The notes beneath the pieces were generated by a model. The model was not told the DNA's origin, did no database searches, and saw only the letters and a program-made list of their open reading frames with translations. Both the position numbers and the translations under genes were made by a program. A DNA stretch of 64,000 bases from the NCBI GenBank assembly GCA_002049455.2, contig KV918826.1, positions 1 to 64,000 on the forward strand, in the 5' to 3' direction. Every line of letters starts with the position of its first letter. Position 1 is the stretch's first letter. This document shows, one piece after another, positions 16,453 through 64,000 of this stretch. This stretch comes from Porphyra umbilicalis. Lineage: Eukaryota > Rhodophyta > Bangiophyceae > Bangiales > Bangiaceae.

Positions 16453-16457
16453 GCCGG

Positions 16458-36504: not shown

Positions 36505-37003
36505 TTTGTGACCCTTCTCTCCATGGCCGCCCGAGCGCACGCCCAGTTAATATACCCCGAGACACGTCTTCTGGGTTTTCAAGTACGTATGAGTTATCCA
36601 TTGGTCATGGCTAGAAATGGAGCCATTCTATTGGCTGAACAACTGGCTGACAACCGAGAATCGGCAAAGCTGTCCCGCCTCGCTGGAGACCCTTGCAGCT
36701 CATTTCCCCCCGCCCTCAGTGCCTCTTGTGGGCCTGTTTTTGTCATCCACTGTTCGGAAGTGCGAAAATCACTTCCACCGAGGTCTCCATTCGATGACCG
36801 TGCGTGGACACGCACGATCGACGTCCGCACCCCGCACCCCTGCCGGATCGACGTTTTCACCCCCACCCACCACGGCCGGATCGACGACCACCTCCTTGCT
36901 CCGCACCTGCCCGCTTGTTCTTCGAATTGTTGCGTTGCTCTCGCCGCCCCCCTTCGACTGCGCGAAATAACCGCGACCGTGCACCATCGTCGGCGGTCCT
37001 GCC
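36505..37003. other. No gene seen; probable start of the nested block
   Basis: Composition changes after 36500, from the LTR-element style to unrelated DNA. No terminal repeat or target duplication was found, so the left edge of the nested insertion is not fixed. Confidence 0.35.
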
Positions 37004-38270
37004 CTAGGTGAATTTTTGGTTCGTTCTTGGCGACACATTGGCGACACACAGCGGTCGAGTGTCGCTAACGTGTCGCGCAGGGGGGCTAACTGTGTCGGTG
37101 ACGGGAGCACCATGGGAGCACGCCGGCAGCGGATAAGCATCCGGCCGTGCCGGATACGGAACAAACATAAGGAGCATCCTGTTCAATTGCCATTTCCGCG
37201 GCAAAAGTTTGGATCTAATATTCCATAAATCGATGACTGACACGCGACCAACAATCTCAGTCAAATGACATTGTGGATCACGCGACAGAAACGCCCCCAC
37301 AGGACATATCTGCAGGTCACCAGCGCCACCCTGCGCCGCCGCGGCCGCCGCCGCCGCCGCGTCGAGCGCGTCGAGAGTAGCGTCAAACAGGGCGGCGTCG
37401 GCGGTGGCGGCGTCGGCAGCGGCGGCGGCGGCGGAGGCGCGATACTGCACCAGCGGGTGCCCATTGGAGACGGCGCCCGTCGCGGACGCGGAGGCTGGTG
37501 GGGGAGACGGGAGGGTGCCCCGCCGCCGCCGCATCCCGCAGCAGCAGACGCCGCGTCGCCCCCCCCCCCCGCTCCCGCACCCGCTCCAGCACCCGGACCC
37601 GACCCTGCCCCCGCCGCGCCCGGCAGCAACTGACACGCCTCCCGCGCGAGCAGGAGCACGAGCACCTGCCGCACCGCCGGCGTGCGGGCGGCGGCGCCGC
37701 CCGGCGCAATCAGCGCGCGCAGCAGCCTGTCGGTGACTGCGGGCACGCACAGCATCCACACGGGCGCCGTCGACGGCACCGCGTCGGCGGGGATGGGGGC
37801 CGCCGCGCCCGCCCCCCACCCCCTCACCGGCGGCACCTTTCTCCCCCCCCCCCCCTTCGCCCCAACTTCCGCTGACGAGGCCAGCCCCCCCCCCCCCCCC
37901 CCCACCGCCGCCGACGAGGTAAGCCCCCCCCGCCGCCCGCCGCGTTGGGCGCGGTGCAAAAGCCGAGCGCAGCATCGTCAGCTACCGCCGCCGTCGCCCC
38001 GCCGTCGCCCGACGGCGGCCGGCCGGGCCGAGGCACAGTCGCCGAGTCGCCGCCGACAATTCGCTGCCCCCGTCGGCTGCCGCGGCGCCGCCCCGCGCGG
38101 GGTGCCTGTCGCCTTCGGGCGCGAACTCCGCGGCAGCTGCAGCGGCGCCGCCCCTTGCCGCCGCTGGCGCCCGCCCGCCACCCGGGGTAGACGCGGCGCC
38201 GGCGACGCCGCCCCCCCCCAAGCCGCGCGCACCTCCTTGGCCGCCAAGACCACCGCCGCCGCCGCGTCGC
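37004..38270 (-). pseudogene. Possible degraded gene fragment on minus strand
   Basis: Three minus-strand frames hold protein-like segments in sequence: GGDSATVPRPGRPPSGDGG and ADDAALGFCTAPNAAGG (about 38010-37930); VWMLCVPAVTDRLLRALIAPGG and VRQVLVLLLAREACQLLPG (about 37750-37620); then HPLVQYRASAAA, LFDATLDALDAAA and LQICPVGAFLSRDP (about 37460-37270). The frame changes coincide with C-runs (about 37845-37900 and 37560-37570), so they may be real indels or homopolymer errors. I do not recognise the protein. On the minus strand, sequence upstream near 38980 has a CATAAAT box and ATTGG. It may be captured host sequence. Confidence 0.3.
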
Positions 38271-38285
38271 TGTCGCCTCCCGCCG

Positions 38286-38800
38286 CCGCGGCTTGCCGCC
38301 GCCGCCGCCGAAACCGCGCACCCCTCCAGCACGTCCACCTTCCCCCCCGCGCCGACAACGCGGCAGCCTCGGCCGCCGACCGTCGCATCGCCGCCGCCCC
38401 TTGCCTCCCCCGCCGCCCTGTGGACTGGCGGCGGCGGCGACGACGCGTGGCGGCGGCCGCCGCCGCCGCCGCAACGCCCGACACCGCCGCGGCTTGCCGC
38501 CGCCGCCGCCGACACCGCGCACCCCCCCCGCACGTCCGCCCCCCCCCGCGCGCCGACAACGCGGCAGCCGCGGCCGCCGACCGCCACATCGCCGCCGCCC
38601 CTTGCCGCCGCCGCCGCCTTGTGCATTGGCGGCAACGGCGGCGACGCGTGGCGGCGGCGGCCGACGCCGCCGCAACGCCCGACACCGCCGCGGCTTGCCG
38701 CCGCCGCCGGCGAAACCGCGCACCCCCCCGCACGTCCGCCCCCCCGGCCCCCCCGCAGCGGGAGGCCGCAGACGCGATCTCGCTCCTTGCAGCCGCCGCT
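38286..38800. repeat. 201-bp GC-rich minisatellite, about 2.5 units
   Basis: The phrase CCGCGGCTTGCCGCCGCC starts at about 38287, 38488 and 38689. Between these, GCGCCGACAACGCGGCAGCC, CGCCGCCCCTTGCC and GACGCGTGGCGGC recur in order. The period of about 201 bases keeps all frames open (67-residue repeats). Confidence 0.7.
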
Positions 38801-40431
38801 GCTTGCCACCTCATCGCAGCCGGCTGCCGACCGCGCCGGCACTCTGAGTCGCGTCCACCGCGCGGGCCGCGGGGGCGGGGGATGACCGCCGGCCGCCAGG
38901 GGTGCCCTTCGCGGCCGCCGATGTTGGCGGTTGGAGCCTCTCCCGCCCCCCCAAGTGCTCTGGGGGCATTTATGGTAGAAGATGTCACCGCCAACCAATC
39001 ATATTGCTGGAAAAGCAAGGATAAACGAGCAGAACAATGAGGACATGGCTCTTATCCAATGAAAATCGTCTCAGCGCACCTCGCCGCAGGGGAAAAACAC
39101 GGTCAGTGTCAGAGTCCTTCTGATACTGTCATCGCAGTGCGGCACCAGCCAATCAGAGGCAGAATTCACCTGCACGATTGCTATGATAGACGGCGGAGGC
39201 CGGTCTGCTGCTGTCCTCACCATTCCGTGCTGACAGTGATCTTGCCTGAGTGCACCAGGGGCGAGGTCCCTCCTGAGTTCGTGAAATTGCATCATTTCAG
39301 TGATACACAAGCCTGGGACTTGGCCGTGTCAGCTTGATTCTCGTTGTCTTAGCCGTTGGACATGCCATCCGAACCGAATAATTGTGTCGCCAGATCCCCG
39401 ACCGGCCATATCAAGTCGTAGGCTGCGGTTTCGATGTGGCACCACACTGTGTCGCCCTCAAATCGCTTGAAAGTAACCAAAGAAGCGCGATGGCAGAACC
39501 GCCGACGATTCCTTCTGGCTCACTATTTCTTGTGGCCTCCTCCCCTCCTGTGACGTCACGCCGGCTTGGGGCGGGGGCTCCCTGCCCGTTTTTGTGGTGA
39601 GCACCGATCATTTCACGGTCTTTTGCCGGTCAGCGGGCCTGGTCAGGTACGGTAAGCTCTCTACGAGCTAGAGACAACGTGTGTTTGTGAGGCTTTTGGC
39701 TGCTGTTTCAGCCTGTTACCGCTTCGCACATCATTATCTCTGTGACCAGACGCTCTCTTACACGTCGATGAACCTGTCATCCTCTCTGCGGCCGGCCGGG
39801 ACGTTTCACTCAGCAATACTCTTTCGGTGTTCTCTGTCGCCACCCGTATCATCTCTTCTTGATTGTGTCTTGTTCAATGCATTGTCTTGCTCTCTCGGGG
39901 CACCACCATTTACAAGATGAAGTACGACTGTTCAACCGAGGCAACAGCAATCAACTCAACAACGCATGATGCTTGACGTTTGAGTTGCAAGAGAGACAAC
40001 GCTCAAGGGTGGCGAGGGAGGAGATAGTGGGGCTGTAGCAGTCCGACGGCCATCGGTGGTTGGCGCTGCAGAGTGGAGCGGGCGTGGGCGGAGGGGGCGT
40101 AGGACTCGTCACCGGATGCACCTGGTGCGGAGCGGGAGAGAGGAGCGTGTTGTGGAGAGGGGGCGAGTGGGTCGAGTCACGGGGGCGCCAGAGGATGCGC
40201 TGGTCACGGCGTCCACGCGTAACACGGCAGGGGTGTGTGCAGCACGTACCATGGCACGCCCCTGTTCTCTACTTGCATGCTTCTCTGCCCCCGCAGTTGG
40301 CTCTCATTGTGTGTGTGGTCACTTTTCACTCTGGAACGCCCACACTCTGGCGACGCGTGCTCCATTTATCTTGCGGTTTCTTGCCCGATTGTCATGTCTG
40401 TTTTTTTTTCCAATCCCCTCTCTCTCGTGGC
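38801..40431. other. No recognisable gene
   Basis: AT-balanced DNA with CCAAT-type boxes (CCAATGAAAATCG near 39057, GCCAATCAGAG near 39147). Only short ORFs without domains are present. The left end of the transposon carrying the two large genes should lie here or further left. Confidence 0.35.
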
Positions 40432-43400
40432 TCATCCTAGCATCAAACCTACAGCAGGGTCCAATTCCTCTTCTTCGAGGTACTCGTCCTCCCCGTCAAG
40501 CGGCGCCACCTGTGGTTGTTGCTTCTTCGTGTATGCATCAATTGTCACGCCTGCCGCGACCGCCCGACCCCGCGCCCACGCCTCCATCTCTGCAATCTCC
40601 TTCTCCCGACCGACTGTCGTTTGCCGGGGTCCTGCTTTGTTTTGTCAGAGGCGTCCGTCGCTTGGCTTGGTCGCCTTCCGCGCGCCGGCTGCAGCAGGCC
40701 GCCGATGCTGGCCGTTGTCCAGCGCTACGTCAGCGGAGGGCTGGCGCTCCAGCGCCGCGCGCTGCACGAATTGTAGGCACGTCCCCAGAAATGAGTCGGC
40801 TGTACATTGGGCTTGCGTGTGGTTAAACCACCCGTGCCACGCCTCAAGGGCCTGTTCCCCGTAGGAGCCGAGGGAACAGAAGCGGCGGAGGAACGCTGGC
40901 GCGTGGTGCGCCAGCGCGTGCAGCTTTGGTGTAATGCTCAGCCACGGGAAGGCAGCTTGCAGCGGGGGGCACAGGCCCAATGCACCCACCTCAAAGGCGG
41001 CTGCCTCCTCCACGGATACGTCCTGGGCCTGGTTGAGGGTTTTGGCGAGTGCCGCCGACGTCACCCACGCAGCGCGCAGGGCTTCCAGTTGATTTGCTGG
41101 CAGGTACGGTGCGAGAGCGTCGCACACGACATGTGACCGCTCCGCAATGCGATGGGAAGCCCGCCCTACAAAGCCACCACCGTGATAGGCGACTGGTCGG
41201 ACGCGCACCTCGTCAAGCAGGGCCAGTCCGATAGCCGTGGCAGCTACCACAGACGATGCCCGCCCGAGAGCTGCGTACGTGGCCTCGATGCCCAGGCGCA
41301 GCAATACTTGTGTAACGCCCAACGTCAAAAGAAGTGGTGCTGTACCGATCTGGCACGGGTAGATGTCTAAAAGGGGGCACGACTCAATGGACAGGTGCTC
41401 CGCGGGCGTCCGTGGGATGGGAAGCGATGCATTGGGACCCGTCTCGTAGGCCAGGATCGCATCCTTCAACTGTTTTCGCGTCCTTAGTTGTGTCGGCGCC
41501 ACAGCCATGGCTTGTATGGAGCCGTACTCCAGCGCCAGAGCCTCGTTGGCCTCGCCCGAGCGGGCCACGACTGGATACCAAGGGCAGGAGCAGCGCGCGG
41601 ATACACCCTTGTGGCCCAAAAACGCCGATAGGAAGGCCACGTCCCCGCCCAAAAATAGACGCACCGCCCGCAACGTACCACCAACCAACAGACCGTGGTC
41701 CAATAGTTCTTGCAGGTCCCCTGCCCATGGACCAATCATCTTGTGGAGATCCTCATTGCTGTCATTGACACAAGGCAGCGTTGACAGGACGATGGAGTTC
41801 GCCCGGGCCATGGGGCGCTCTTGATTGGGAGTTGTCAGAACAAGCTTGGAAGTGGCCGTGCCGAGATTCCCGTTGTCAAGGCTGACGCACACGTGCACGT
41901 CAGCCGTCGAGTCGCAGTGCTGCTCATACGGCAGCTCAGGGCACGGCCGAAAAGCCTTCGTGTGGGGCACGGGCAGGCCATCAAGGCCCCGCACGAGGCG
42001 CTCCCTGAACTGACCGCTGGAAGACAGGTCTTCGAAGAGGCTCTCCAGGGCGGCTCGTAGGCTCACCAGGTGCGCTCCCCGGTCGTCCGACCACACCTGC
42101 CTCCCGGGTTCGTGGGATAGCGCCGACATGGCACTGCGGAAGACCTCCCGCGATGCCCACGCACTGGCGTTGCCGCCACCCGCCTGGCGGAGCTGAGACA
42201 AAGTTGCCGCGCTAAGGTGGTGTCTGACAGCAAACTGGGCCTGCTCCCGAGGAGACAGCCGCAGAAAGCCCCCCACCGGCACGACAGCACCGCCTCTGCC
42301 GAGATGTGCCGCCTCCAGCAGTTTCAGCAAGGGGGCTTGGTGGGCCGACAGGTCAGCTGTCGTTACACCCTGGATGACCGTCGCTGCCGTCCTTAAACGG
42401 CGCTGCATTTGCCGCGAGCGCACAGGCCCTGTTCCCACTGCCGTTGCGAGCACGTAGCGTCGGTTGCCCCCGTTCTCGAATGCAAATGAGATTTCGCTGG
42501 GGCGCGTCGCTCGTAGGTGCGCCGTCAGCAGCGACTCAAACCGCGACAGGGAGGCACAGTCGAAGCTTTCGTACCTGCCTAGCAGCTCTGCCAACATCTT
42601 CTCGGTGAACCAACCAGGGACGCCCGGTGACACCCCAATCGTGAGGGATGGAATGGTGACATGCTCGTGGATGGACCCCGGTAGAAGCGCAGCGACGTGG
42701 CCGCCCACCACTGAGCCTGACGCACCAACCGCATCGGTGACCGCCGATGGCACCGCCGCAGCACCGACCGCGGATGAGCCCGACGGCACAAGTCCACCAG
42801 CCGTCACGCGTGTCGCCTGGTCCGTGTCGCGTGTCCTTGGGGTCACCGAAATGCCCGGAAGAGCGCACACGGTTCTGGCCACCGGCCCGTGGATGGGTCC
42901 AGGAGGCACCAGTTCCGGCGTTTGGCAGCGAGGGGTGGGGCGGGGGAGGGGGGGGGATGGGGCGCTCATGGGTTCTTGGGCCGCAGCAGCACAGCTCAAA
43001 ATCTCCAGTCCCGAATTGTCTGGTGCCGTGCCCACGGGAGCAGTGCCGCCCTCACGGCTGGGAGAACTTGTGGAAGGCGCTAAGGGTTGCATGCGGGACT
43101 GCTTGTTGGCCGACGACCGGCAGCCGGCGCATACTTTTCGCCTCTTGGTCCTTGGTGTCGCCAGCTGTGCTGACAACTCTTCGGGGCCCCACAAAAACGG
43201 CAGTGCAGCCGGGCCTGGGATGTACCGTGCGCGGGACGCGCGGCCACTCTGGTGGCGCATCGACACGCAGGGCTCAAACGCCGAAGGGTCCCGCCCCGCT
43301 AGGGGCGCCCGGCACCCAGTGCACGTCCCAACGACTACGCCGCTCGAGTGATTGTACCGATGTGCAACATTGGCACTGCTGCGCAGCGTCACAGCTACTG

Positions 43401-43881
43401 AATGTAGTCGCACGTCCTCCGGATAAGCACATAAGCTTCCCAGGTAGCTGTTAACTGCTTGCGTGGGGTACAGGAAAGTCTGCGCGCACGGTAGGCACAC
43501 AAAAACCAACGACCTTCCTGTGGAGGGGTTGACGATGTCCTTTACCATGCCAATCAATGCATCCAATAAGCTGCGTGGGGCGAGCAAGGAGAGGAAGACA
43601 CTTCTGTCGCTCCATTTTCCCGTCAGAAACAGTCGCAGTGCCACAGTGGAAGGAAGCCCCCAAGAAAAATACATGAGCCATATCGTAAAAGATGCCCCAC
43701 GCCATGCCCACCATGGCGGTATGCTCAGATCCCCCAGAAGTGCGATGCTTTTTGTTGCTTTTTTCGCTCGAACAGCAACGGCGGTCACCCCCGTCGCCCC
43801 CGTGAACGTACCGGTCGTCTGTGCCGTCGCAACCGGGCTGCTGCGCTGCCATATCTGGGAGGGAAGGGTGTCACACAACAA
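40432..43881 (-). pseudogene. RAG1/Transib-like DDE transposase-related protein A, one premature TGA
   Basis: 1078 codons run from 43881 to TGA 40645-40647. The frame then stays open to 40432 and matches the C-terminus of paralogue B (basic linker, KK, then LEEEEL), so the TGA replaces the Arg of RLRINK in B. The N-terminus has Cys pairs (FVCLPC, GTCTGC, KVCAGC). Core motifs shared with B: VHVCVSLDNGN (Asp 41875-41877), GGDVAFLSAFLGH (Asp 41641-41643), LHALAHHAPAF (HX4H) and QALEAWHG (Glu 40843-40845). The zinc-type CX2C of B is CPWY here, so one Cys is lost. ATG 43852 in another frame, followed by a GTACGT donor, could give a spliced start. Resemblance to RAG1/Transib is inferred from motif order, not from a search. 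Confidence 0.55.
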
Positions 43882-44479
43882 CGAAGGTGCCGGGCGGTGT
43901 CGAGTGTGGCGAGTTCAGGCAACGTCGGTGTTGCTCGTAGCGATCAGCGGCCGGCGGTGTGGAAGGAAGCGTCACGGTGCGTCGCCTGCGCTTTGCGGCC
44001 AGCGGCCACAGATTGACCAGAAAGCGCTTCCAAATAATCGGGCATTACAGAAATCATTTTCAGATTTTCAAGCCAGGAGACGTGCCTTAACTGGGCGTGA
44101 GCGACTCGCAGGTCTTGTACCCTTTTCTTGACTTGGTCAGAGAAGTATACCCCTTCCCGCGTCAAGGCGGGGAGTTTAACTTTCTTCCGGAGACAGTATT
44201 CCCGGAGGGCTTCTCTCGGAAGCACACCCAGTTAAGGCGGGTCTTCTGCGTCTGAATATTTCGAATTATTTCAAATACATCTGGTGGTTGTGTGCCTCCA
44301 GTGTGGTCGTGCTCGCCGTTCTGAGAACCGAGTGACCTCGGCCCCGCCGTCCCCGCACGCCGCTACTATTTTTCCCAGGCCGTCCCCACGAGCCCACGGG
44401 ATTCCGCGCCCCCCAAGTTGTTCTCCCCCTGAGTACTCCCTTGTGTCTCGCATCCCCCCCGACGGCGCTTGCCGTCGGC
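43882..44479. promoter_or_regulatory. Shared divergent promoter region of proteins A and B
   Basis: About 0.6 kb between the two divergent start regions. A minus-strand ORF 43944-44225 (93 codons, MLPREALREYCLRKKVK) is open but unassigned. It could be an upstream exon of gene A. No clear TATA box was found. Confidence 0.4.
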
Positions 44480-47400
44480 ATGGCCATTGACGAGCCGGTT
44501 CCCGACCGCGTTACCAGGTATGTGTACGGAGGCGCGTGAAGCAGAGTGAAGCGTGCACCAGTTTTCTTGTTTTATTCCACCGCCAGGACCAGCACAGGGC
44601 GCTGATCACACTGGTGTTCGAGTGCACAGCGAGATCTGGTCTATGCCACGACGATATGGGCGCTAACGTAATCCACTCTGTGTGCTCCGGGTCTCTTTCT
44701 GGAAGTGCTTTGGACGTAGCTGCTGCCTCAGTAAAGGATATTGTACATTGTGGTTCTGGCAAACACCTGGCCTTTGTCTGCAGATGCTGTGTCAATGCGT
44801 TCCTTTCCCCATCCATGGCGACAGACGAGTGGCTGGCCAGTTTGGCCACACCCAACCCGGCAGATGTGTTGGCACATCGTGTAGCTTCGAGGCTGTTCAA
44901 GAGCAAGCTGCGAGGATCGAGTACACTACACGCAACAGGTGTGGCGGTGGGAATGTGCCGCCGTTGCTGAGCTGCAGAGAGCAGAGCCCAACGGGCGCCT
45001 GTGCCGGTGATGCACGACTGCCGGTCGGCTCGACATGGCAGTGGTCCCCCCGCCAAGGCGTGCTACCGAGAAAGCGTCGGCATTCTCCCGTGGCTGTGGG
45101 GACCCGAGAAGGCAGCTGCTCAACTCGGTTTGGTGCCCACTCAACGGGAGAAGGTTTGCTCACGCTGCAGGACCGCCTGTGAGCGCGCACGGCGCAAGGG
45201 GGCCCCGCCGGTGAGTAGCCTGACGCCTGCCCCCCCCTCCCCTCCTTCTTTTGTGGCACCCATCCCCCTTTCCGCCCCCACGTTTTCGGTCCCTATTCCG
45301 ACATCCACTCCTCCCACGAGCGGCTTGGACCTGCTGGCAAAGGCCGCGGATGAGTGCCGCGACGGGCAGTCCAGGTCTGACACCGGTCGGACTGGAGCAA
45401 GCATCCAGCCCGCTGCGTCCTGCGGACATCTGGCACGGGTCGCCCTTCAACCTCTGTCTGTCGCCCCTGACATAGCCATGCTCCACACTCGGATGGTCGA
45501 CCACCTGCGGGCAACTAAGCCCCGCTCCATCTCCTTTGCTTTCAAGAACGGCGTGACGCGCCAATACGTGTCCAGCCCAATGGCGCGGCTCCCATTCGTG
45601 CAGAAGCGACAGCTGAACCGCAGAGCGGCCCATGCCGCCGCTCTGCTCGCTGCCGCCGCAAAGACCAACGCGGCAACGCACCGGCGCAACGTACAAGCGC
45701 TGTTTGCTCATGCACAGCGGCGAAACGGCGTGTGCGTCGTGCCAATGCATGGCAGGGAGGTGCTGTCACCCGAATTGCAAGCGCGACTGGTGACCAAGGC
45801 CAAGCTGAGTCGCTCGCAGTGGAGCCAGGTGCGTCACGCTCTCGGCGGCAAGGCCAGCGGTCTGGTGAGCAGAGAGGTGGTACGTAAGAAGGCCAGAACA
45901 ATGGCTGGCGAGGCCTCGCGGCAGGTCACTACCGACGATGGCGGGGCTCGCCTCGTGAGCGCACGGGCTGCCCTGCAGTGCCTTGTCGCAGACCTCATCC
46001 GAGTGGGGCTCTTTGTCGAGCGCCACGTACGAGGCGCGGACGGGCGCCCCGTCCCACACACAAAGATGTTTACCCCGCAGCCGGGGCCCTACAAGCAGCA
46101 CGACGATGCGACAGCTGATGTGCACGTTTGTGTCGGGATGGACAAGGGCGATAAGACCAGTACATGCAAGCTGGTGGCAACCGTGGCCAATCAAAGCCAG
46201 CCACAAAAACGGGAGCACTCCATCCTGCTGGCAACGTACTCATGCACGAGCGACGGCCACCCCGAGCTCACAGCGATGATCGGTCCATGGGTGGCTGACC
46301 TCCAAGACCTGCTGACACATGGCATCACTGTCAATGGGCGGCTACGGGCTGTCAGACTTCTCTTCAACGGGGATTTTTCCTTCCTTTCTAACTTCTGCGG
46401 CCACCTGGGCGCCACGTGCCACATGAGTTGTCTCTGGTGCCTGGTGGTGCGGCTGCCGTCAGACAACAGCAACGAGGAGGCTGCTACGTACGGCAACATG
46501 CAACGTGCGGCGGACAAGCCACGGGTGCTCAGGACACGCGCCCACCTGCAGAGCATGGCAGTCGCCTACGTGTCGAGTGGACACGCGTCACTGGCGACAC
46601 CTCTGCCCCTTTCCAAGCATTTCTCCATCGAGCGTTGCCCGGTTTTTGACGCCTACCCCGAGCAGATTGTGCCACTTTCACTCCACATCACATTGGGCGT
46701 GACGTCTTTTTTGCTGCAGCTGGACTTTTCGGCAGTTGTGGAGGGGCTGGGCGAGGCCTGCGGTCGGGCAGCGGCTTTGGCGGTTGGGCGGGCGTTGGTC
46801 GACGATGCTCGGGTCAGGCCCGTGCCGTACCACGGCGGCGGATTCCAAGGCCGTTCATGCCACAAAATTGCCGCCAAGGGTGTCATTGTCTGCGATAAGC
46901 TGGCGCCCTATCTACCGCCTCGGCAATTGGCGGCGCTGCGGGTGGCCTGGGACGCGTCGGGCTTCCTGGCGGGCGTGCTGAACCGCGCTGAGGAGATTTC
47001 TCCCATTGACGTGGCGACGTTTGACCGGAAAGCGGCCGGGCTGCTCCCACCCCTGCAAGCGGCCTTCCCGTGGATCAGCGTATCGGTCAAAATTCATGTG
47101 TTGGCGCACCACGCTCCGGCCTTTCTGCGCCGGTTTGGCAGCCTCGGCATCTATGGCGATCAAGCGATGGAGGCGTGGCATGGGTTTTTTATCCAGCGCG
47201 CCCCCCAGTTTACAGCTGAAAACTTCCTCGGCAGCTGCCTCGCGCTTGTACAGCACGCCGCCATCGCGCGGGACCCGTGCGCCGCGGCCGCGCTTGACAA
47301 TGGGGAGCACAGGCGGCCAGCGGTGCCAGGGGCGCGCCGCGCGACCAAACCCGGCGACATGCGGCTACGTATCAACAAGCCCAACACCGAGCGGGCGACA

Positions 47401-47832
47401 GCCGCGTCAACCAAGCTGGAGGAGGAAATGCAACAGTGGGCCGAAGGGCGGGTTACAAGCGCAGTCAAGTCGGTTGCCGCGTACCGCAAAAAGACCGCTG
47501 CGCCCGAAAAGCTGTTGCGGGCCCGCAAGCGTGCCGCCGCTGCGCCAGCTGACGCTGGTGCGCCGGCGACGGCCTCTGTGCCGGCCGCCGAAGCCGCTGA
47601 GCTGGCCGCTACAGCGGCTCTTGCCATATCGGCTCCCCCGTTAGCCGGCGCACTGCCGGCGCACGCGGTGGCGGCCGCTGGAGCGGCAGCTGACTGGGGG
47701 GCTCCCCCTTTGGCCATTGCGCTGCCGGAACACGCGGCGGCGGACGCCGCGGCGGCGGCGGTGGGCGATTTGGCAGACGAAACCCTGGAGGAGGAAGAGA
47801 TCGACCTCCTCTCGTTTCTTCTGTTCACTTGA
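44480..47832 (+). pseudogene. RAG1/Transib-like DDE transposase-related protein B, one in-frame TGA
   Basis: ATG 44480 gives MAIDEPVPDRVT. A possible 44-base intron (44518-44561, GTATGT...CAG) joins it in frame to a region homologous to the N-terminus of A. One TGA (44968-44970) falls where A has Arg, and the frame then runs unbroken to 47832. N-terminal Cys pairs: FVCRCC, MCRRC, KVCSRC. Core: VHVCVGMDKGDK (Asp 46141-46143), SDGHPELTAMIGPW, NGDFSFLSNFCGH (Asp 46371-46373), CLWC (46429-46440), HVLAHH (HX4H, about 47096), and YGDQAMEAWHG (Glu 47170-47172). The tail is Ala-rich and ends LEEEEIDLLSFLLFT. In RAG1 the same order, Asp, Asp, CX2C, HX4H, Glu, builds the nuclease and its zinc site. All these residues are kept, so apart from the TGA it looks competent. 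Confidence 0.6.
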
Positions 47833-47901
47833 GTGTGGTGCTGCCGCGCGGGTTGGGCGAGACGATGGGCTTTGTTGGACGGGCCGGAGGGGACCGAGTG
47901 C

Positions 47902-50900
47902 TCACGGCTTCGTCGGCGACTCGAAAAGAGTCGCGTATTTTGACGACGACATAATCCTGCCCGCCTCAGACCGTGACACACAGCCGGTCACGTGTCTTGC
48001 GCAATCGAAAGGTGTTCGAAAGGCGCCCTGGACCAATGAGAAGGCGAGAAAGCCGTAAGACTCGTCTGAGTCGGTTTTAACTAGGTGTGGAAGAGAAGAG
48101 GCAAATTGGCACGTGGCTTCCCCTTCGGGAAACCCAAACCATTTGACTAAGAGCTTCAATTGCCCGTCATCATTCCAACCATGGTTGATAAATTTTTGAA
48201 ACACGTATTCGGGACCATCCTTAAGGTGGGTCCCCTCCTTACAGAGGGCTTGTGCCTTCAGGGCACGAGTCCACTTGGCATCCCGCGCCGGGGGCGTGGG
48301 AGCTCCAGTGACATGGTCACTTCTCACCGTCCTGATGCCCCTGGGGCTCTCTATCAGGAATCGGTACCCATCGGTCTGTAGTACCATATAAGGCCCCTGG
48401 GTCTTGAACCCAAGCTTCTTTGGCGAGCGGGAGTGGGCATCCAGATAGACCCAGTCCCCAGCTTTTAGCTGGATATTCTTTTCTCGAGCGCACGCATCGA
48501 AGGCGCGCTTGTACGCTGCCTGGGCTTTCCCCAGATGCTCCCAGACCTTGGGAATGAGGGCCTTCAGGTCCTCAACATATTGTTCCGCCGCCGAGCTGGC
48601 GTCGACGGGTCGTTCCTAGGCTTGTCTCGGCCGAGTCATTCTCTCAATCCCAATGAGTTGGAGCCGCCTCGGGCTCACGAAAGCAAAGGGGATTTCCCCA
48701 GTGCTAGAATGTACCTGCGTATTGTACGCAGACGTCAAGAGGGACAGATGGCTGTCCCACTCGGCTTGGTGCTCCGCCACATAGCAGCGGAGCTGTCGAA
48801 CGAGGGTGCGGTTATACCGCTCCACCTGCCCGTTCGTCTGCGGGTGATAAGGCGAGGTATAGTTCGAAGCTATACCGAGTAAACCCAGAATGCCCTGGTA
48901 ATACACCGAGGCAAACTGCGGTCCGTTGTCCGTAAGGACAGTGTCGCGGATGCCTTATGCGGCAACCCATGTATCCATAAATGCCGATGCCACGGTCAGG
49001 GCTGTAGCTTCCCTCAGGGGGATGGCTCTTGTCAACTTCGTGAACCGGTCACAGATGACCAGGACGTGCTTGTGCCCCCCTTTAGAGGTGGGCAGTGGGC
49101 CCAACAGGTCCATGGCGAGCCCCGAGAAGGGCTCGTCGGCGGTGAACAGCTTCATCACCGTCGTATGTTTTCTCTCTGAGAGACGGTTCTTGGCGCACGC
49201 GGGGCATTGCTCCACGTGCTTGTATACGTCAACGACCATCGTAGGCCAGTACACATATCTACGAGGGGTGTTGTACATCTTTCTTGAGCCGGGATGCCAG
49301 GCTAGCACCGACTGGTGTTGGTGAGTTAGGAGGCGCTTCTTTAGCGCCTCTGGGATAACCACTTGGGTTTCCCGTCCGTACACCGAGCGACGGCAGAGTA
49401 GCCCGTTCTTTTCTCGGAAGAAGAACGCTTGACGACTCCGCGTGGGGTCGGGGGGCGAAAGAGCATCGAGCTCTTTAAACCTGGCCTGGCAAAAGGCGTC
49501 CTCAGCCTGGCCCAGGATAATCTCTCGGGCCGTCAGGGCCCCCATAGGGGCCTCCTCCGGTGACGCTTCTTGTAAGACGTCACTGGCCCGGGTCTCCACA
49601 GCTAGGACGGGGATGTCCTCGTCCAGGAGCGAGGTGTCCAAACCCTCTGTAGGGAGACGCGATAGCGCGTCTGCCACCTTGTGATCCTTTCCCGGCTTAT
49701 GCCGTATCTCATAATTGTACTCCGATAGTCGGAGTCGCCATCGGTTAATCCGAGCATTCGGACTCATACTAGTGAGAACCGATAACAGGGCGCGGTGGTC
49801 ACATCGCACCACAAATTCCGCACCTTCTAGGTAGGACCGTAAATAAGTCACGGCCCAGACGACGCCAAGCGCCTCGATCTCCGTGGCGAAATAGTACTTC
49901 TCCGCAGGGAGAAGTGCACGGCTATAGTAGCCGATGGGGTGGTATTCCCCGACGGACTGTTGTTGCTGTAGGCAACAACCCAGCTGTTCATAGCTGGCGT
50001 CGACGTCGACGATATAATGCCCGTGCCTCTTGGGCAGGGCTAGGATAGGGGCGTCCAATAGACGTCCTCGGAGTATCTGAAAGGCGTCCGTCTCCTTCCC
50101 TGAGGGTGGAGGAAGCTTCTGAGGAAGCTTGGTGCTTGTAAGCGCCGTTAGTGGCTTCGCTATCTTAGCGAAGTCTGCTACGAAGCAGCGGTACACGACG
50201 CACATACCCAGATCTGGGTCTGGGTTTCCGGATAACGGAGACCCCGAAGTGCCCGGAGGTTCTTCTCCAGGACATGTACCCGTCCTGGTCGAATCACATG
50301 ACCAAGGTATTCCACTTCCTCCTGGAAGAAGTGGTACTTAGACGCCTTCAAGGTGACCCCTGCTTTCCCGAGCAGGGTCAGCACCTCATCAAGGTGCTGT
50401 AAGTGTTCCTCGGGGGAACCCGAGAAAACAATCACATCATCCAGATATACCAAACATATCTGCCACTTCACACCGGCCAGGATCATATCCATGGCGCGTT
50501 GGAAAGTCGCAGGGGCGTGAAACAATCCAAATGGAAGGCGCACGCACTGCCGTGAGGTGTTTTTCCTCCTCGACTACTGGTATTTGCCAGTAACCCGCAT
50601 TACATCCAGGGTGGAGAACACCCTGGCGTCCCCTAGGGAGTCAATGCACTCATGCATCCGTGGGATGGGGTACGCATCCTTGATAGTCATCGAGTTGAGC
50701 TTTCTGTAATCGATACAGAAGCGTACCGAACCATCAGGCTTCTGTACCATCACCACGGGGCTAGCCCATTCCCCGCTCGCGGGCTCAATAACGTCCATCG
50801 AGCGCATCCGCTCGACCTCCCCTTTCTCTCTCTCCCGGGCCATTGGCCCAGCCTCGTACGGGTGCTGTCTCACGGGGACAGCCCCAGGCTTCAGTCGGAT

Positions 50901-51818
50901 TCGGTGTTCCACACCTCTAATTAAGCCGAGCTTTCCCTTCTAAAGGGAGGAATGCTTTTGGAGGAGGGCCTTTACGGGCCCCGACCACTCCGCCGGCACC
51001 GAAGAAACATCCACCTTCGGCAGAGGTGAACCCTCTACCCCCTTAGGGGGTGTAGCGAGCTCCTTGAGCTCGCTCTCCGAGACCTCGTACGTCGGGCCCT
51101 CTTGGGCGTCGATATACCCGATGGTCATATCGGTTGTTAGCCGCAACGGCGTAACGCCCAGGTGCATCACCTGGATGGTTATGGGCTCGTCTGCCATCAT
51201 TATGGCAGGGCCTTGGGCGACCTGTAGACCATGCTTGTGGTACAAAGGCGGTCGCCCTCTCACGAGGCCATGCCCCGTGTACGTACTTCTTACGGGAACA
51301 TGGGCTATTGTCCCGGGTTGGACCCAGGTTGTCCGGGCTGGCTTCAGTTGAGCCGTTAGCCCCTCGGGGCAAGCACAGACCGCCGAAATGGAGGGATCGG
51401 GGCGTCCCCTAGGGGCTCCCCTCCTTTTGATCGGCACCTTGGCGCCGTCTAGGAGTTCCACATGTTGCTCCTGTGTTGCAATGTTTTTTGTCGCAACGTC
51501 GATAAAGGAGGTGCCCAAAATAGCTGGGACACTCATATTGTTCACAACTCCAAAGGAGATGTAGGAGGTCTGACCCCCAAGGGTCACACCAAGACAGATA
51601 GCTCCAACGATGGCGATCCAGCCCCCATTGACATCATGGAACATCTTCGCGAGATCACCCAGCGGTTGTAGCGGGGTGTCGACCGGCAATAGCCGCCGGT
51701 CTATTAGCGTTGGGCCACTACCCGTATCCAATATAGCCCGGGTGTTGCTGATCCCCCAATTCTGTCCTCGTCGACCAGGAACGGTTCCTGTCGGTACGGT
51801 TCTTGTGGAACTAGCCAT
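47902..51818 (-). pseudogene. pol: Pol of the 22-kb element (PR-RT-RNaseH-IN-chromodomain), multiply broken
   Basis: Protease AILDTGSGPTLI (about 51730); TAG 50940-50942 where relatives have Trp (before KGKLG). RT blocks RFCIDYRKLN, LPFGLFHAPATF and YLDDVIVF (about 50440), with a shifted and shortened stretch at 50530-50605. A frameshift near 50200 separates RT from RNase H (YIVDVDASYEQLG). Integrase: HQHQ...H and CPACAK, AMDLLGPLP, then TAA 48955-48957, LTDNGPQF, HPQTNGQVERYN and TAG 48616-48618. The chromodomain is at about 48240-48110 (EYVFQKFINHGW to LLVKWFGFPEGE). The first codons of the protease frame lie inside a MITE (51745-52188). It cannot produce a full Pol as read. Confidence 0.9.
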
Positions 51819-52188
51819 CTATTGGTTAAACGCAGCCGTAAACAGCTGCTCAGCACGAATCTGAGGCGTCCTATTGGCTCTCCCTCCGCCACTTCCGTGC
51901 AGAACCGAGATCCTTCTTTTTCTTGAGATTTTCTTTCGCTCCCTTCAGTGCCAAGGGAGCAACCGGCCCGCAATTGTTACGATATCAAGATTCTCTGGGA
52001 GATACGCAGAAAAGGACAGAAAAACGAAGGCGTCGATTGTGCGATTGGGGGCCGTACGGGCACATTCTGTAAAGATCGGGCCGGACATGCACTGCTGTCG
52101 GACTGCTCGACCAATGAGAGATCTGCATTCATTGCCGTTCCACTACCGTTCCGGGGCGATGAGGACAGAATTGGGGGATCAGCAATAG
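51745..52188. mobile_element. MITE with CTATTGCTGATCCCCCAATT-type ends, between gag and pol
   Basis: TTGCTGATCCCCCAATTCTG at 51745 is mirrored at the right end (to 52188), followed on the inner side by GTCCTC(G/A)TCG and GGAACGG in both arms. The same ends bound 56567-57496. The left arm encodes the GQNWGISN residues just before the protease AILDTG motif, so the element edge forms the N-terminus of the protease frame. Confidence 0.65.
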
Positions 52189-52392
52189 TGAGATCAAATC
52201 CTGCCGTCAGGAATAACCGGACGGCTAGTTGGTAACTAGAGGAGGGCATGAACGCGCAAGGCGTCCCCTTTGGGCGTCTCCCTTGGGAGGCCCCCACTAC
52301 TCGACTAGGCCGGTTTCTCCCGGCCCTACGAGATGACTTGCATCTCCGGTCGATTCTATTCGTCTCCCGGACGGGTGGGGCAAACCCACCCG

Positions 52393-54462
52393 CTACTCGT
52401 TTCCCGAGGGGGAATTGTCCTCCTCGTCCTGCTCGGCCGCATCCCTCCCTGGGGGGGGTGAGTCGTCCGAAGACGACCACGGGGGACCATAATGTTCCCT
52501 CACCGCCGCGACCGGTTGTCCTTTACGGACTTCCTCATCCGCCTTGCGGCGCTCTTCGCACCGCTCCAAAAAGGCTTTGGTCAACAGAGCCTTTGTCCCC
52601 GCGTCAAGGCGGGGACACTCTCTAAAGAAATGCCCCCGTATATTACATGCGAGACAGTTATTCGTTCGGGGTCGCCCGGGACGACCCGCTTCTCCCACCT
52701 TGGTGGAGTTCCGTGGGGAAGGCCCTCGAGGCCCTTCCCCCACCTTAGCGGAAGCCCATTGGGTCTGGCCGTGAGGGACCTCCTTCACCTTAGGGGGGCC
52801 CCATCGGGATGGACCCGCTTCACCAACTTTCGGGGGGTCCCTTCGGGGAGGATCCGCCTCCCCCACCTTAGGTGGGCCCCATCGGGAAGGACCCGGAGGA
52901 ACTTCCCCCACCTGAGTTGGGGCTGTTACCGCCGCGGTTACGTATTTCCGCGGCGCTGGCCGAGCAGCGCGACGTACCCGACGGGCCTCGGCCCGTCGGT
53001 CCTCTTCATCCTTTTGTTCCTGGAGGCGTCTACGACAGACGTCCCCCTTCCGCTGGGCATATTGCACCAGCAGGTCCATTGGCATGTTGGGGGTGTTATG
53101 TTCGCGCACATCGGCGCGAATCTCCCAACCAAGCCCCTGCGTATAGCGGCTTTTCATTTGTCCTTCCGTGTGAATGTAACCACACAGGCGACGTAACCCC
53201 CGTAGGCGTACGTAGTAATCATTCTCTGTCTCATCCGCCCCTTGGGCGGCCCCATGGAACAGGGCATCTTGGTCGCTTAGCGACTGCTCATCCGCGTTTT
53301 TGCGGAGGAGCCAGTTGATCAGTTCCAAGTAGGAGCTGACCTCTCCACTCCGCCCTCCTTGGGGGGACGGCATGATCGTATACAACTCCCGTTTAAGATC
53401 ACCCTTAGTGAACTCGGGAAGGAGATACAGGGCTCGGCCCTCCGAGACGTCATTGTCGTCACCCGCTTTTACGAAGCGGCTGAGGAATTCGAAGACGCCT
53501 AAGGCGGGCGTCCCATCCCACTCTGCATCACGGCCAAAAGTGGCCGATACATCCTTACGCAGACGGCCTAGGCCGTGCGCCATGGTCCGGTCGTACCGGA
53601 TGTCGGTATTCGCCAAAGCATAAGTTGCGCAATCTAAGACTTCGGCATAGCGGTCGTCCGCGGGGACGATCTTAGGGGGAATCCGACGGTGGGATTCCCC
53701 TCCCAGCTCGTGCCCTAGGGCACGGGTGACCGATCGACGGGGCACATGGCGACCCCCATCTCCCCCGGAGTACTCCCCGTCCGAGGAGGAGGAACTCATG
53801 CGCCGACGTCGGCGCCGGGACCGTCTAGTGGTCCCGAGGGCTGCCTCTATAAGAAACATTCGATCGTGTAACGGGCTAATAAAAGCGTCCAATGAATCCC
53901 GTAGGGCTGCCGATATGGCAGCCGCGTCTTGGGCCCCCGTTGGGGCCCGGTCACCACCTCCCCGAGGAGGTGTTCTGGGTGGGCCGGCGGCTCTCGCCAG
54001 CCCGTCATATGGGCCCCATGGTAAACGGGGGACCGCTTGGTCCCGCCTACCCGGGGGTAGAGGAGGTGGAGGCGGGAATTCCCCTCCGGCTCCACTCTCC
54101 ACACCTTGGAGGGGAGGAGGTGGGAATTCCCTTCCACCTATGCCCCCCGCACCTTCGGGGGGAAGAGACGGGAATGCCCCTCCGTCTACACCCCCCGCTC
54201 CTTGGGGGGGGAGAGACGGGAATACCCTTCCGCCTGTGCCCCCCGCACCATGGGGGGAAAGAGACGGGAGTACCCTTCCGTCTCCACCCCCGTCGCTCGG
54301 CGCGCCACGCTCCGGCGTGGCGGTGCCGGCTTGACGCTCCCGCCGAGGAGGGATCCCTTCGGGGTCCTGAGACCCCGAGCCCTCGCTCGCTCCGTCACGG
54401 TCGCCCCGTGACGAGTTGCCGGCGCCCGGGGCGCCGGTCTCCGTCACCCCAGTGGTGTCCAT
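52393..54462 (-). CDS. gag: Gag of the 22-kb LTR element
   Basis: 689 codons from ATG 54462 (MDTTGVTETG), intact; a longer frame to 54498 would need a non-ATG start. The N-terminus contains about five tandem repeats of the type VFPSLPPQGAGG. Then an Arg block and Ser-rich stretch, a globular capsid region (about residues 270-480, with LGVFEFLSRF and ETENDYYVRLRGLRRL), a Pro-rich array of KVGEAxP repeats, and one zinc knuckle CLACNIRGHFFREC (about 52640). The acidic C-terminus ends SPSGNE. Pol lies 575 bases downstream, separated by a MITE. An intact gag beside a ruined pol suggests the element may use Pol from relatives. Confidence 0.9.
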   Translation of the reverse strand: MDTTGVTETGAPGAGNSSRGDRDGASEGSGSQDPEGIPPRRERQAGTATPERGAPSDGGGDGRVLPSLSPHGAGGTGGRVFPSLPPQGAGGVDGGAFPSLPPEGAGGIGGREFPPPPLQGVESGAGGEFPPPPPLPPGRRDQAVPRLPWGPYDGLARAAGPPRTPPRGGGDRAPTGAQDAAAISAALRDSLDAFISPLHDRMFLIEAALGTTRRSRRRRRRMSSSSSDGEYSGGDGGRHVPRRSVTRALGHELGGESHRRIPPKIVPADDRYAEVLDCATYALANTDIRYDRTMAHGLGRLRKDVSATFGRDAEWDGTPALGVFEFLSRFVKAGDDNDVSEGRALYLLPEFTKGDLKRELYTIMPSPQGGRSGEVSSYLELINWLLRKNADEQSLSDQDALFHGAAQGADETENDYYVRLRGLRRLCGYIHTEGQMKSRYTQGLGWEIRADVREHNTPNMPMDLLVQYAQRKGDVCRRRLQEQKDEEDRRAEARRVRRAARPAPRKYVTAAVTAPTQVGEVPPGPSRWGPPKVGEADPPRRDPPKVGEAGPSRWGPPKVKEVPHGQTQWASAKVGEGPRGPSPRNSTKVGEAGRPGRPRTNNCLACNIRGHFFRECPRLDAGTKALLTKAFLERCEERRKADEEVRKGQPVAAVREHYGPPWSSSDDSPPPGRDAAEQDEEDNSPSGNE

Positions 54463-54611
54463 GGCGGGAAGACTCCGTCCTCCTGCGGAAACAATCAATC
54501 CTCAAAGACAATCTCAACAGAACAGTCACACCCAAGGGCAAGACAAAGCACGGCAGAAAGACCACCGTGAGAACTGACACAGGGTAGACCCGAATGATCA
54601 AGAAGGGCCAA

Positions 54612-58192: not shown

Positions 58193-60591
58193 CTCGCAGA
58201 CGGATTGCACGGAACCGACGACATGGAAGAGCACACGAGGGCGCGGGACCTTCTTGTTGCAGAGGGCCGCCGAGGACGTCAGCATTTCAGGGATGCTGCC
58301 GTCGACCGCCGCGATCGACGCCGTGCTCGGGGGTGGTGCCACCCACCACACTCCCGACTCCTCCGACGCCAAGTTGCTGCCGGAGAAATTGGAGGAGGAC
58401 CTGATGATGGGGCAGGTTTTTCTGGCGCGTTTGCACACCCCGGCGCTCCTCCCGTGAGCTGCTCGTGACGGTGTCTTGTAGCCGGATATGGCGCAGGCTG
58501 TATCGCGTCTACGCCACTCTCTTCATTGTGCGTTGATTGAGCGTGACGGTGGTGGGGGAGGGGTAGTTGTGCGATCGAGCCTGCGTGGAGGAGAAGGTCT
58601 ATCGAGTTCTGTTAGCTCTGTTCCCTTCTCTTTCTCTCGACCGGACACGTCGACAGTGGAATATGTCGCCTAGACCCTTTTTGGCCCCCCCCTTTTTTTT
58701 CTTTCTTTTTTTTCTTTCTGGCAGCTGACCGTGGAGATTTCCACACCCAGAGCGCGTGCATTGTTTTTTCATCGACCCGTTCACACGCCTGCCGCAAGCC
58801 TTCCTCATGCGTTCTTGCGGCGCTTGCGACATGTCCTTCTGAAGCGCAGTCTTGCAGAATAAAAATGTGTGCGTCGACGACCACATTGTGCGCCCAGTCG
58901 AGACGCTTCGTGTGATCTGATTTTTACATCGGTTGAAAATGCACGACACCGTTGTAAGAGCAGTTGTGTCGAAAATCGCTCTTTTTGACATCACGACAGG
59001 GGTGCTTGCAATTTCTTGCCATCCATATAAGCCCAAAATCGAGGTTGTGTGCGCCCACGGTTTAGTCACCACTGCGCTGGTGCACGCGTGACTTCTGCCT
59101 GTGGCGGTTGACTCCAATCCAAAAGCCCTGCGATGGTCAGAGCATTTGCACCAACGGAGTGAGGCCGGGCGCGAGGTATCAAATGCACCCCGCGAGGGGT
59201 CGCTGCGCACGACTCGCAGTGACCCTCCGCCGTCTGTAAGTCTGTTTAGTGCGCTTGGCGACGGGGGCCTCCACACACGTTTCGCATGTGTGGCCCCCGT
59301 CGGTTGGGATGGCGACCTCGACGCGACACCATGTGGACTGTGAAGCGCTCTACGTGTCTGCCACGGGCATTGCATGTGCCGCCACCGTGGCACGGATGCG
59401 CTGATTGGCTGCAGCTCTCTGGCCCAAGGAGTCTCGAGATCGATGCAGCATGGGCCTGCCAGGAGCGCAGCGGCCGCACGGCGGCCGCACTGCGGCGCGG
59501 CGCGTCGAAGAGACAAAAACGACACTTCGATCCGTCACACCCATGGCCGTCCTTGGGCGTTTCAGCACCCCACCCATCGATACGCGGCAGGGAGAGTGGG
59601 TGACCGGGCCGTCGACGGAGCAGAGAGTCCGCCGCCACCCGCCATCTGAGGGCCCAGGGAGCGCGTGGGGCGGCGTGGGAGCGGACCCGCGCGGCGGCGA
59701 GCACACGCGCGCCGCCGCCGTGGTGGGTGCGGCACGGAGGAGCCGCGGACATCACCAGCCCCCCCCCCTAACGCGCAGGGTTCTCGCCGTGTGTGCATGG
59801 TGACATAAACAGTAGGGGGAGGCGGGGCAAGTGCGCCTCACGAGGCTGCGCCCACGGGCCCACATCCGCACGTCGGTCCAAGTGGCACCCCGCCACAGAC
59901 TGCACACCGGCTGTAGCCAAGCCTGGCGTGGCCGGACCCTTGCACCAGCAATGAGGCTTTCGGCACTGCTGAGCGCGTCCAAGGGGGAGGGGGTTGGAGT
60001 TTATCGTACCTGGCAGCGGCATCAGAGTGCCGCGAGATCCCTAAAAGTGAACCAGAGAGCGTGCGAGCCCACCGTTACCGACGCGCTCTTGTCGAACGGG
60101 ACATCACACTGACTGGTCGCCCGGGTGACTGGCCTTGGAGACGGCCAAAGAAGCACAGAAACAAACTGCGTGGTGCGGACGCTGCGCTGTCATGCGGATG
60201 CTCTGGTATATTAAAAGTTCTGTCTCTTGCTGGCTGACCCCATGGCCTGGACGAAGCATTGCGGGCAACACCTGCACAAAGACACTCCAAAGTCGCGCGG
60301 CTTGACTGATACCCCGTACGCGACCCGCTTATTGGGCTCAGTGTGTCCTTTCCCACCAGCCCATCCGTGTCACACTGCGCCTTTGGCTCATGCACGACGA
60401 CACACGAGGTCCGTGCGCAGTTCAGGCCAGGACGCTCGTGTACGGACGGCATTGTGTCTATTCGGCAGCGCGTGGGCGGGTCCATGATGGCGGTGTGTCG
60501 TGCGCAGCCCTGTTCTCCGCAGCCCCCACAAGAGCCGCCTGTGTAGGAAGAACGATGGTCCATGACCAATACGACAAACGGCATACGGCAT
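58193..60591. other. No recognisable gene
   Basis: A 68-codon ORF at 58254-58457 (MLQRAAEDVSISGMLPSTAA) looks protein-like but is unassigned. A pyrimidine-rich T/C tract lies at 58685-58722. Several 90-300-codon ORFs on both strands lack domains. Confidence 0.35.
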
Positions 60592-60670
60592 GCGATACAC
60601 GATACACGATACACGATACACGATACACGATACACGATACACGATACAAGATACAAGATGCACGATGTAC
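60592..60670. repeat. (GATACAC)n heptanucleotide microsatellite
   Basis: GATACAC is repeated perfectly about seven to eight times and then decays to GATACAA and GATGCAC. Confidence 0.9.
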
Positions 60671-60774
60671 GGCGTAAAACAAACAGCCAACTCGTCGCGG
60701 CGCTGCCATTGTCGGGATTGGTCCTACTGTAGAGGCCCTTCTCTTGTCTTGAACTCCTCATTGTCTCCCCCGGC

Positions 60775-62949: not shown

Positions 62950-64000
62950 GCAGCTAGCGTCGGAAGGCAGGGAGCGGAGGGGGGGGGGGGGGGGGGGGGG
63001 GTGGCCCGCGGGGGCGTTGGCACCAATCCGCGCGTTGTCGCGGCTGTTTGGTTGGTCTGCACGGCGAGCGTTCACTCCCCCGGCGGTCGGCCTGGCGGTC
63101 AAAAGGCGTCGGCGCGGTAGCGCGGCGGCACGGTGGCGCGGTAGCGCGGCGGCACAGTGGCGCGGTGGCGCGGCGACGCGGCGACGCGGCGACACCGCGA
63201 CGCCGCGGTACGGTAGCGCGGCGGGCGCGGTGGCACAGCGGCGCGGGGGCACAGCGGCGCCGGGGCACGGCGGCGCGGCGGCGGCAGCACCGCGCGTCGG
63301 CGCCGGCACGCGGCGGCTGCCGGGCAGTGGGGCGACATTGGGGCGGGGGCGGTAGCGGCAGTTGCCGCGGCCGTGGTGCCTGCGCTTTTAGGCGCCCGCC
63401 CGAGCCGTCCGCCCGTCGCGAGCACCTCTGTAGGACGGAAGGGGGAGCGCGGGGGGGGGGGGGCGGATCCCCCCGGCCCCGGGCGGATTGCGCAGAGAGA
63501 AGGGGAAGGCTGCCCGCGGCCGCGTGACAGAGTGTTTGGTGAAGCGTTGGCGACGGAAAGGTGGCGTGGAGGCGCCCCCCCCCCCATGTGCCCCGCGTCA
63601 CCCGCCAGCCGCCGCCGCGACCGCGTGACCACCGCGACCTGGCCGCTAACGGGCGGCAGGTGGCAACCGCGCGGTCCACCGATGAGCGGCGGCGTGATTG
63701 GCTCGGCGGGTGCGGGCGCCGCCACGCTGCCCCCCCCGCACCCCCCCCCCCCCCACCGTACTGGTTCTGTCGTGCCAAGCGCGAGCCGAGACGAGGCGCG
63801 GTGGTGGTCCCTGCCGTGCAGGTGGCGGTTGGTGCGGCCAACCGGTCCTGCCGGCGTCGCCACAGCTGGTTCCGCCACGACACACCCAATACCGACTACG
63901 TTGTCCAATCCAAACTAGGCACGCATCTTCCTCTGCCCAATCAAACGTCGGCCTTGTTCGGTGCGACCAACCAAGTGTCGAGCACAACGAAGTGCGGTAC
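62950..64000. other. Upstream region of the zinc-finger gene
   Basis: A run of 23 G lies at about 62979-63001, then GCGCGGCGGCAC-type tandem words to about 63290. Past 63640 complexity is normal, with GATTGG/CCAAT boxes (about 63693, 63900, 63945). No second gene is recognised before the edge. Confidence 0.45.

Follow-up and report, generated by a model that had tools for sequence, protein, structure and literature searches.

RAG1, the nuclease of V(D)J recombination, has mobile relatives, and it is against these that the locus described here is best read. Transib and RAGL elements make 5-bp target-site duplications (PMC7204232, PMC8289069, both in part; here and below, "in part" marks sources of which part was available). 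An active RAGL transposon has been described in an alga, Aureococcus. This element, AanRAGL, makes 5-bp duplications, has ends with 4/13-bp spacers and carries a RAG2L gene (PMC9435367); algae were thus already known to harbour RAG1-like elements, though that one comes with RAG2L. The 12/23 asymmetry is described outside V(D)J recombination in only some Transib elements, and vertebrate RAG1 recognises it only in complex with RAG2 (PMC8355894, in part); asymmetric ends are also found in RAGL and in Subgroup I Transibs (PMC9435367). The Chapaev transposons have as their hallmarks 3- to 4-bp duplications, CAC/GTG termini and the motifs C(2)C, LH and H(4)H (PMC4079192, in part). The DUF1280 domain has been equated with Chapaev, grouped with RAG1 and described in animals (PMC3985635, in part), and Chapaev has been assigned to the Transib superfamily (PMC4411706, in part). 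Our subject is a 64-kb window, the whole stretch of DNA analysed (positions 1 to 64,000 of contig KV918826.1 of Porphyra umbilicalis), in which two transposase genes, A and B, lie in two DNA transposons of the same names.

Our reading, to which we give a probability of about 0.85, is that A and B are separate, inactivated copies of one large family of cut-and-paste transposons, whose sole recognised gene encodes a RAG1-like transposase of the Chapaev (DUF1280) branch. An initial annotation, made from the sequence alone, had seen two long, homologous, divergent genes, and so they are: the proteins are 43% identical across 879 aligned positions, and the motifs it quoted, read in the open reading frames (ORFs) and their alignment, stand in both in the order it gave. 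The gap between the genes, put at about 0.6 kb, is about 1.1 kb when measured from the ATG of A (43548) to that of B (44656).

Looking for terminal repeats on either side of A and B without allowing gaps returned matches at chance level only (the B pair was among them, no better than shuffles). The true ends emerged only after other copies had been aligned, the borders being recognised by aligning fetched related loci, with ends such as CACCCCCAGTTAAG. The end pattern, allowing at most one mismatch, occurs at exactly four places in the window (36538, 44099, 44223 and 48089), and each element has its own inverted ends and its own 4-bp duplication. The initial annotation had looked forward to 5-base duplications, which were not found. 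Across the family, an exact 4-bp duplication flanks 30 of 35 tabulated elements, against 0.76 expected from mismatched flanks. These 35 are 15 transposase-bearing elements, namely all of the 30 fetched loci (L004-L033) with both ends in the fetched DNA, and 20 short ones picked from listed facing end pairs. Seven of the 30 duplications lie in C or G runs, and with runs excluded 23 of 28 remain. A 4-bp duplication was also read in three additional transposase-bearing elements, which brings the total to 33 of 38.

The family is large. A protein search gave 18 relatives at E ≤ 1e-3 (among them P0003, 99.6% identical to B), an alignment-based search gave 16, 8 of them new, and reached no named family, and a further search gave 49 with the query included. 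Searched against the same genome, B matched at least 49 places, and in 33 of these the matching stretch contains a stop; this is a lower bound (48 of 8896 candidates were scored), and one gene on contig C66 accounts for two of the places. On viral contigs there were 18 pattern matches, none of which tblastn confirmed as a relative. The acidic LEEEE tail, once singled out as an extra, is no such thing, because several members share it. Short elements of 0.7-1.5 kb (for example L036-L055) have the same ends and are up to 98.7% identical among themselves. Their near-identity suggests recent mobility, and many of them look like non-autonomous passengers. On contig C91, two related transposase places (L026 and L027) lie convergent, about 3.5 kb apart.

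The ends themselves are built of two boxes. Inward of a 14-base terminal box comes a second one, which varies in sequence by family (GTCTTCTGG, GGACATCAGG, GGACATGGCG and GCTCTTTTGG are examples) and which sits near position 18 at one end and 28 at the other in the consensus of 13 elements plus the 20 short ones, L013 and L031 excluded. We compared the two ends of each element beyond base 14 with no motif assumed, using 40 shuffles each. The best offset was exactly 10 in 19 of the 20 short elements and tied in the remaining one; among the 15 transposase-bearing elements it was exactly 10 in ten and tied in two more, B and L032. Where the offset was uniquely placed, 0 to 2 of 40 shuffles did equally well. 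The sign was the same in the 12 of these elements that bear a gene, the long spacer lying downstream of the gene, and three more elements, read by eye, fit the 10-bp offset as well, making 15 of 18 transposase-bearing elements in all. Two second boxes were also followed through the genome. The pattern CACGCCTAGTTAAG-N(0-28)-CTTCTGGG occurred 120 times, its reversed form not once; among the 100 matches listed, the gap was 6 in 53 and 16 in 47, and facing neighbours within 6 kb were one short and one long in 26 of 26 cases. For CACGCCCAGTTAAG-N(0-28)-GGACATYAGGA there were 104 matches, again against 0 reversed, and the 100 listed comprised 53 long and 47 short, with unlike facing neighbours in 30 of 31. 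In the one exception the left end of L055 was paired with another element, because L055's own right end, identified by its matching duplication, has a mismatch in the second box. Copies inherit their ends, so we regard as the stronger argument that families with unlike second boxes keep the same offset: judged from the sequences, both ends appear to have acquired new second boxes with no change in the 10-bp offset. L013 and L031, which are related copies, have a second box at the short position of the downstream end, and none was found at the long position.

As for the transposase, the evidence supports, as far as a predicted model can, the earlier suggestion that A and B are distant relatives of RAG1 and Transib. 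The model has a RAG1-like core fold, and the spacing of the second Asp, CX2C, HX4H and Glu agrees with it. KDZ and other transposases did not appear in the VIA-align rows, an absence that carries no weight against them. A profile search matched, in the PDB and up to E 10, only three RAG1 sequences, and weakly (best E 0.02). The LH pair recurs in its alignment columns, L in 66 of 73 and H in 68 of 73. In a Pfam scan of 19 members, DUF1280 was matched by 6, the RAG1 model by 1 (E 0.043) and Transposase_21 by 1 (E 0.19); P0040 scored 27.1 bits with DUF1280, where the cut-off is 25, and P0020 and others carry a precomputed PF06918 assignment. The Chapaev hallmarks listed above were found: CAC/GTG termini (assessed on A, B and other two-ended elements; the 20 short ones, chosen by their ends, are not counted), 4-bp duplications, C(2)C, LH and H(4)H. 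From these sequence features we file the family as a putative Chapaev-type variant with asymmetric ends like those of recombination signal sequences. Ahead of the core, where Chapaev would have its Chapa zinc domain, lies a Cys/His-rich region with no Pfam match. In A this region has eight ligand-type residues invariant across six sequences, B not among them, and B too has a Cys-rich N-terminal region, split either side of its TGA. Predicted alone (predicted local distance difference score 76, predicted template-modelling score 0.46), the region gave 37 PDB fold matches, none with E ≤ 0.001.

There is an outside chance that these are RAGL/Transib elements proper, close to AanRAGL of the pelagophyte Aureococcus, that have lost RAG2L. 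The fold would be the same, the AanRAGL terminal repeat starts CACACCCA and is bipartite, and its second box lies near positions 18 and 27, much as here (PMC9435367). Their 5-bp duplication is the difficulty, since 5-bp matches number 3 of 35 here, every one in C or G runs, and the single match to the Pfam RAG1 model compares poorly with the six to DUF1280. Less probable again is membership of EnSpm/CACTA or another lineage of the CMCT group (Mirage, Plavaka, ESTA or Lanisha) rather than Chapaev. The motifs are the same across that group and most of it has CA..TG termini (PMC12730594, in part), and Repbase has merged Chapaev into EnSpm (PMC4455052, in part). Against EnSpm itself, CAC..GTG termini with 3-bp duplications are what is used to recognise it (PMC12730594, in part), and the duplications here are exactly 4 bp in 30 of 35 elements; the seven elements that match at 3 bp all match at 4 bp too, each in C or G runs, and Transposase_21 fared as described above.

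That A and B are separate insertions is plain from their target. A 507-base piece of the surrounding Gypsy pol occurs at 40 genome places at 85-100% identity, the window's own included. When the flanks of A and B are joined with one copy of each duplication they form a continuous stretch, and seven other Gypsy copies, those of the 40 with fetched loci, are 94-95% identical to it across 817 joined bases. At each junction (joined positions 300 and 419) 19 or 20 of 20 bases match, and the sole 17-base gap in these alignments, at joined positions 119-134, is far from both. Because these copies hold an empty site for both elements, uninterrupted at the junctions, A and B are two independent insertions in the pol of one Gypsy retrotransposon, 123 bp apart. 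A further copy of A, on contig C25 (128285-133391), is 93-94% identical in three aligned blocks and has its own duplication, CTGC. Two different well-supported subclades hold them in a tree of 72 rows, A in one along with P0007 and P0008, B in the other along with P0004 and P0026, so the pair is not a local duplication either. The initial annotation had proposed one composite element with two transposases head to head, and the divergent orientation and the 43% identity do favour it. It is refuted by the four ends with their two different duplications, the shared empty site, the C25 copy with its own ends and the separate subclades; nor was a second close divergent pair, which the annotation would have had us look for, found among the 49 listed places.

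Both copies are decayed, because each frame has an internal TGA and, in A, Tyr replaces the second Cys of CX2C (CPWY). The CX2C reported earlier for B is there (C477, C480). The frames were extended past the TGAs from tblastn and translation, and the annotated start at 40432 agrees with the A frame read through to the next stop. Domesticated host genes with a cellular function, which the long ORFs might suggest, are scarcely credible given these stops, the zinc ligand lost in A and the numerous scattered relatives whose ends and duplications are intact, most of the genome matches being themselves interrupted by stops.

Several points weigh against the reading of A and B as dead Chapaev-branch transposons with asymmetric ends. 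B scores 23.3 and 24.6 bits with DUF1280, just under the Pfam cut-off; the A ORF, P0012, P0013, P0017 and P0018 have no match to it, and 13 of the 19 scanned members matched none. Neither C(2)C nor H(3-4)H is specific to RAG1 or Chapaev: both motifs recur across the wider CMCT group, and EnSpm, Mirage, Transib, Plavaka, ESTA and Lanisha have them (PMC12730594, in part). The placement within the superfamily is a comparison with Chapaev and AanRAG1L by description and profile, not a tree result. Catalytic residues are lost in some members (Glu to K or V in 3 of 55, the second Asp changed in 6 of 72), and an exact 4-bp duplication is missing from 5 of 38 elements. Three of the 18 transposase-bearing elements lack the 10-bp offset (C25, where it is 12, L013 and L031), and B, L032 and C25 are not significant singly, 27, 13 and 10 of 40 shuffles being equally good. 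Nor are the end counts independent events, because short elements, like other copies, inherit their ends and recur in the genome-wide lists.

If our reading is right, a DDE nuclease of RNase H fold would bind bipartite ends, each a terminal CACGCCYAGTTAAG box and a second box, and would pair one short-spaced, gene-upstream end with one long-spaced, gene-downstream end. Cleavage would fall adjacent to CAC and insertion at a staggered target would leave the 4-bp duplication; the short elements would presumably be mobilised too. Whether this amounts to a 12/23-like rule, a short and a long two-box end whose spacing differs by roughly one turn of the helix, in RAG2-less Chapaev-branch transposons of a photosynthetic protist is a more tentative matter, for which we would offer somewhat less than even odds. 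Were it true, the RAG1-like nuclease itself would be the ancient source of the asymmetric-end logic seen in V(D)J recombination, a property that would predate its partnership with RAG2 and span branches that make 4-bp and 5-bp duplications. A 10-bp asymmetry with 4-bp duplications and, in B, a single gene would allow a simple transposase to be used to test how the 12/23 rule arose.

Table 1. Positions in the window of elements A and B, their parts and their Gypsy target.
Feature	Positions	Strand	Details
Element A	36538..44099	minus	DNA transposon, both ends present, CACGCCCAGTTAA.. at each end, nested insertion inside
Duplication left of A	36534..36537		AGCG, 4 bp
Duplication right of A	44100..44103		AGCG, 4 bp
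A gene-upstream end	44062..44099	minus	terminal box, short spacer, second box
A gene-downstream end	36538..36575	plus	terminal box; second box 10 bp deeper in
Transposase A frame	40432..43548	minus	ATG 43548 to terminal stop; TGA within at 40645-40647
ORF A	40645-43881	minus	long ORF in window ORF list
N-terminal Cys/His region of A	43087..43551	minus	CX2C, CX2C, C-H, CX2C
Nested insertion in A	36988..39504		about 2.5 kb; missing from C25 copy
Element B	44223..48089	plus	DNA transposon, 3867 bp, both ends present
Duplication left of B	44219..44222		GAAG, 4 bp
Duplication right of B	48090..48093		GAAG, 4 bp
Transposase B frame	44656..47832	plus	in-frame ATG 44656; TGA within at 44968-44970; catalytic core uninterrupted
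ORF B	45001-47832	plus	long ORF in window ORF list
B first catalytic Asp, D381 (VHVCVGMDKG)	46141..46143	plus	in strand 214-223 of model
B second catalytic Asp, D458	46372..46374	plus	immediately after strand 288-298 of model
B CX2C (C477, C480)	46429..46440	plus	19 and 22 residues past D458
B HX4H (H699, H704)	47095..47112	plus	residue spacing
B catalytic Glu, E724	47170..47172	plus	20 residues past H704; in helix 562-573 of model
Gypsy pol remnant between A and B	44104..44218	minus	
Gypsy pol C-terminal coding region interrupted by B	48094..48387	minus	

The nested insertion in A has inverted ends, CGTCGGCGGTYCTGCC, with what looks like a 2-bp duplication, AT, and is probably a member of another DNA transposon family. 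The Gypsy element struck by A and B spans 48094-54498. A second Gypsy-type retrotransposon lies at 14806-20909 on the plus strand, with zinc knuckle, reverse transcriptase, integrase and chromodomain and a protease match just below the cut-off, and tandem and simple repeats occupy 60571-63316. The algal character of the genome, guessed at by the initial annotation, is borne out by ten matches to the chlorophyll-binding family PF00504; judged by eye, these host proteins are red-lineage-like.

How, then, does the family compare with the systems already described? It resembles the Chapaev DNA transposons in the DUF1280 matches of several members, and would extend that branch from the animals in which it is described (PMC3985635, in part) to a photosynthetic protist; in a limited literature search, within sources partly available, we found no report of Chapaev in algae. 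The short and long spacing of the second box has no mention in the available parts of the Chapaev descriptions, and the same limited search found no description of asymmetric terminal inverted repeats in Chapaev. Transib (HzTransib) differs in its 5-bp duplications, and most Transib families are symmetric-ended (PMC8289069, in part), Subgroup I being asymmetric (PMC9435367). With the RAGL elements AanRAGL and ProtoRAG the family shares the RAG1-like core and bipartite, asymmetric, CAC-initial ends (PMC9435367; PMC8289069, in part). RAGL elements make 5-bp rather than 4-bp duplications and have a RAG2L gene, where element B, with 433 bp ahead of its ATG and 257 bp past its stop, leaves no room for a second gene. 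And set beside V(D)J RAG1, what we have is a mobile element, with RAG2 not found, on the evidence of element B, and boxes unlike the nonamer, whose two ends differ in spacing by 10 bp, where the 12- and 23-spaced signals differ by 11.
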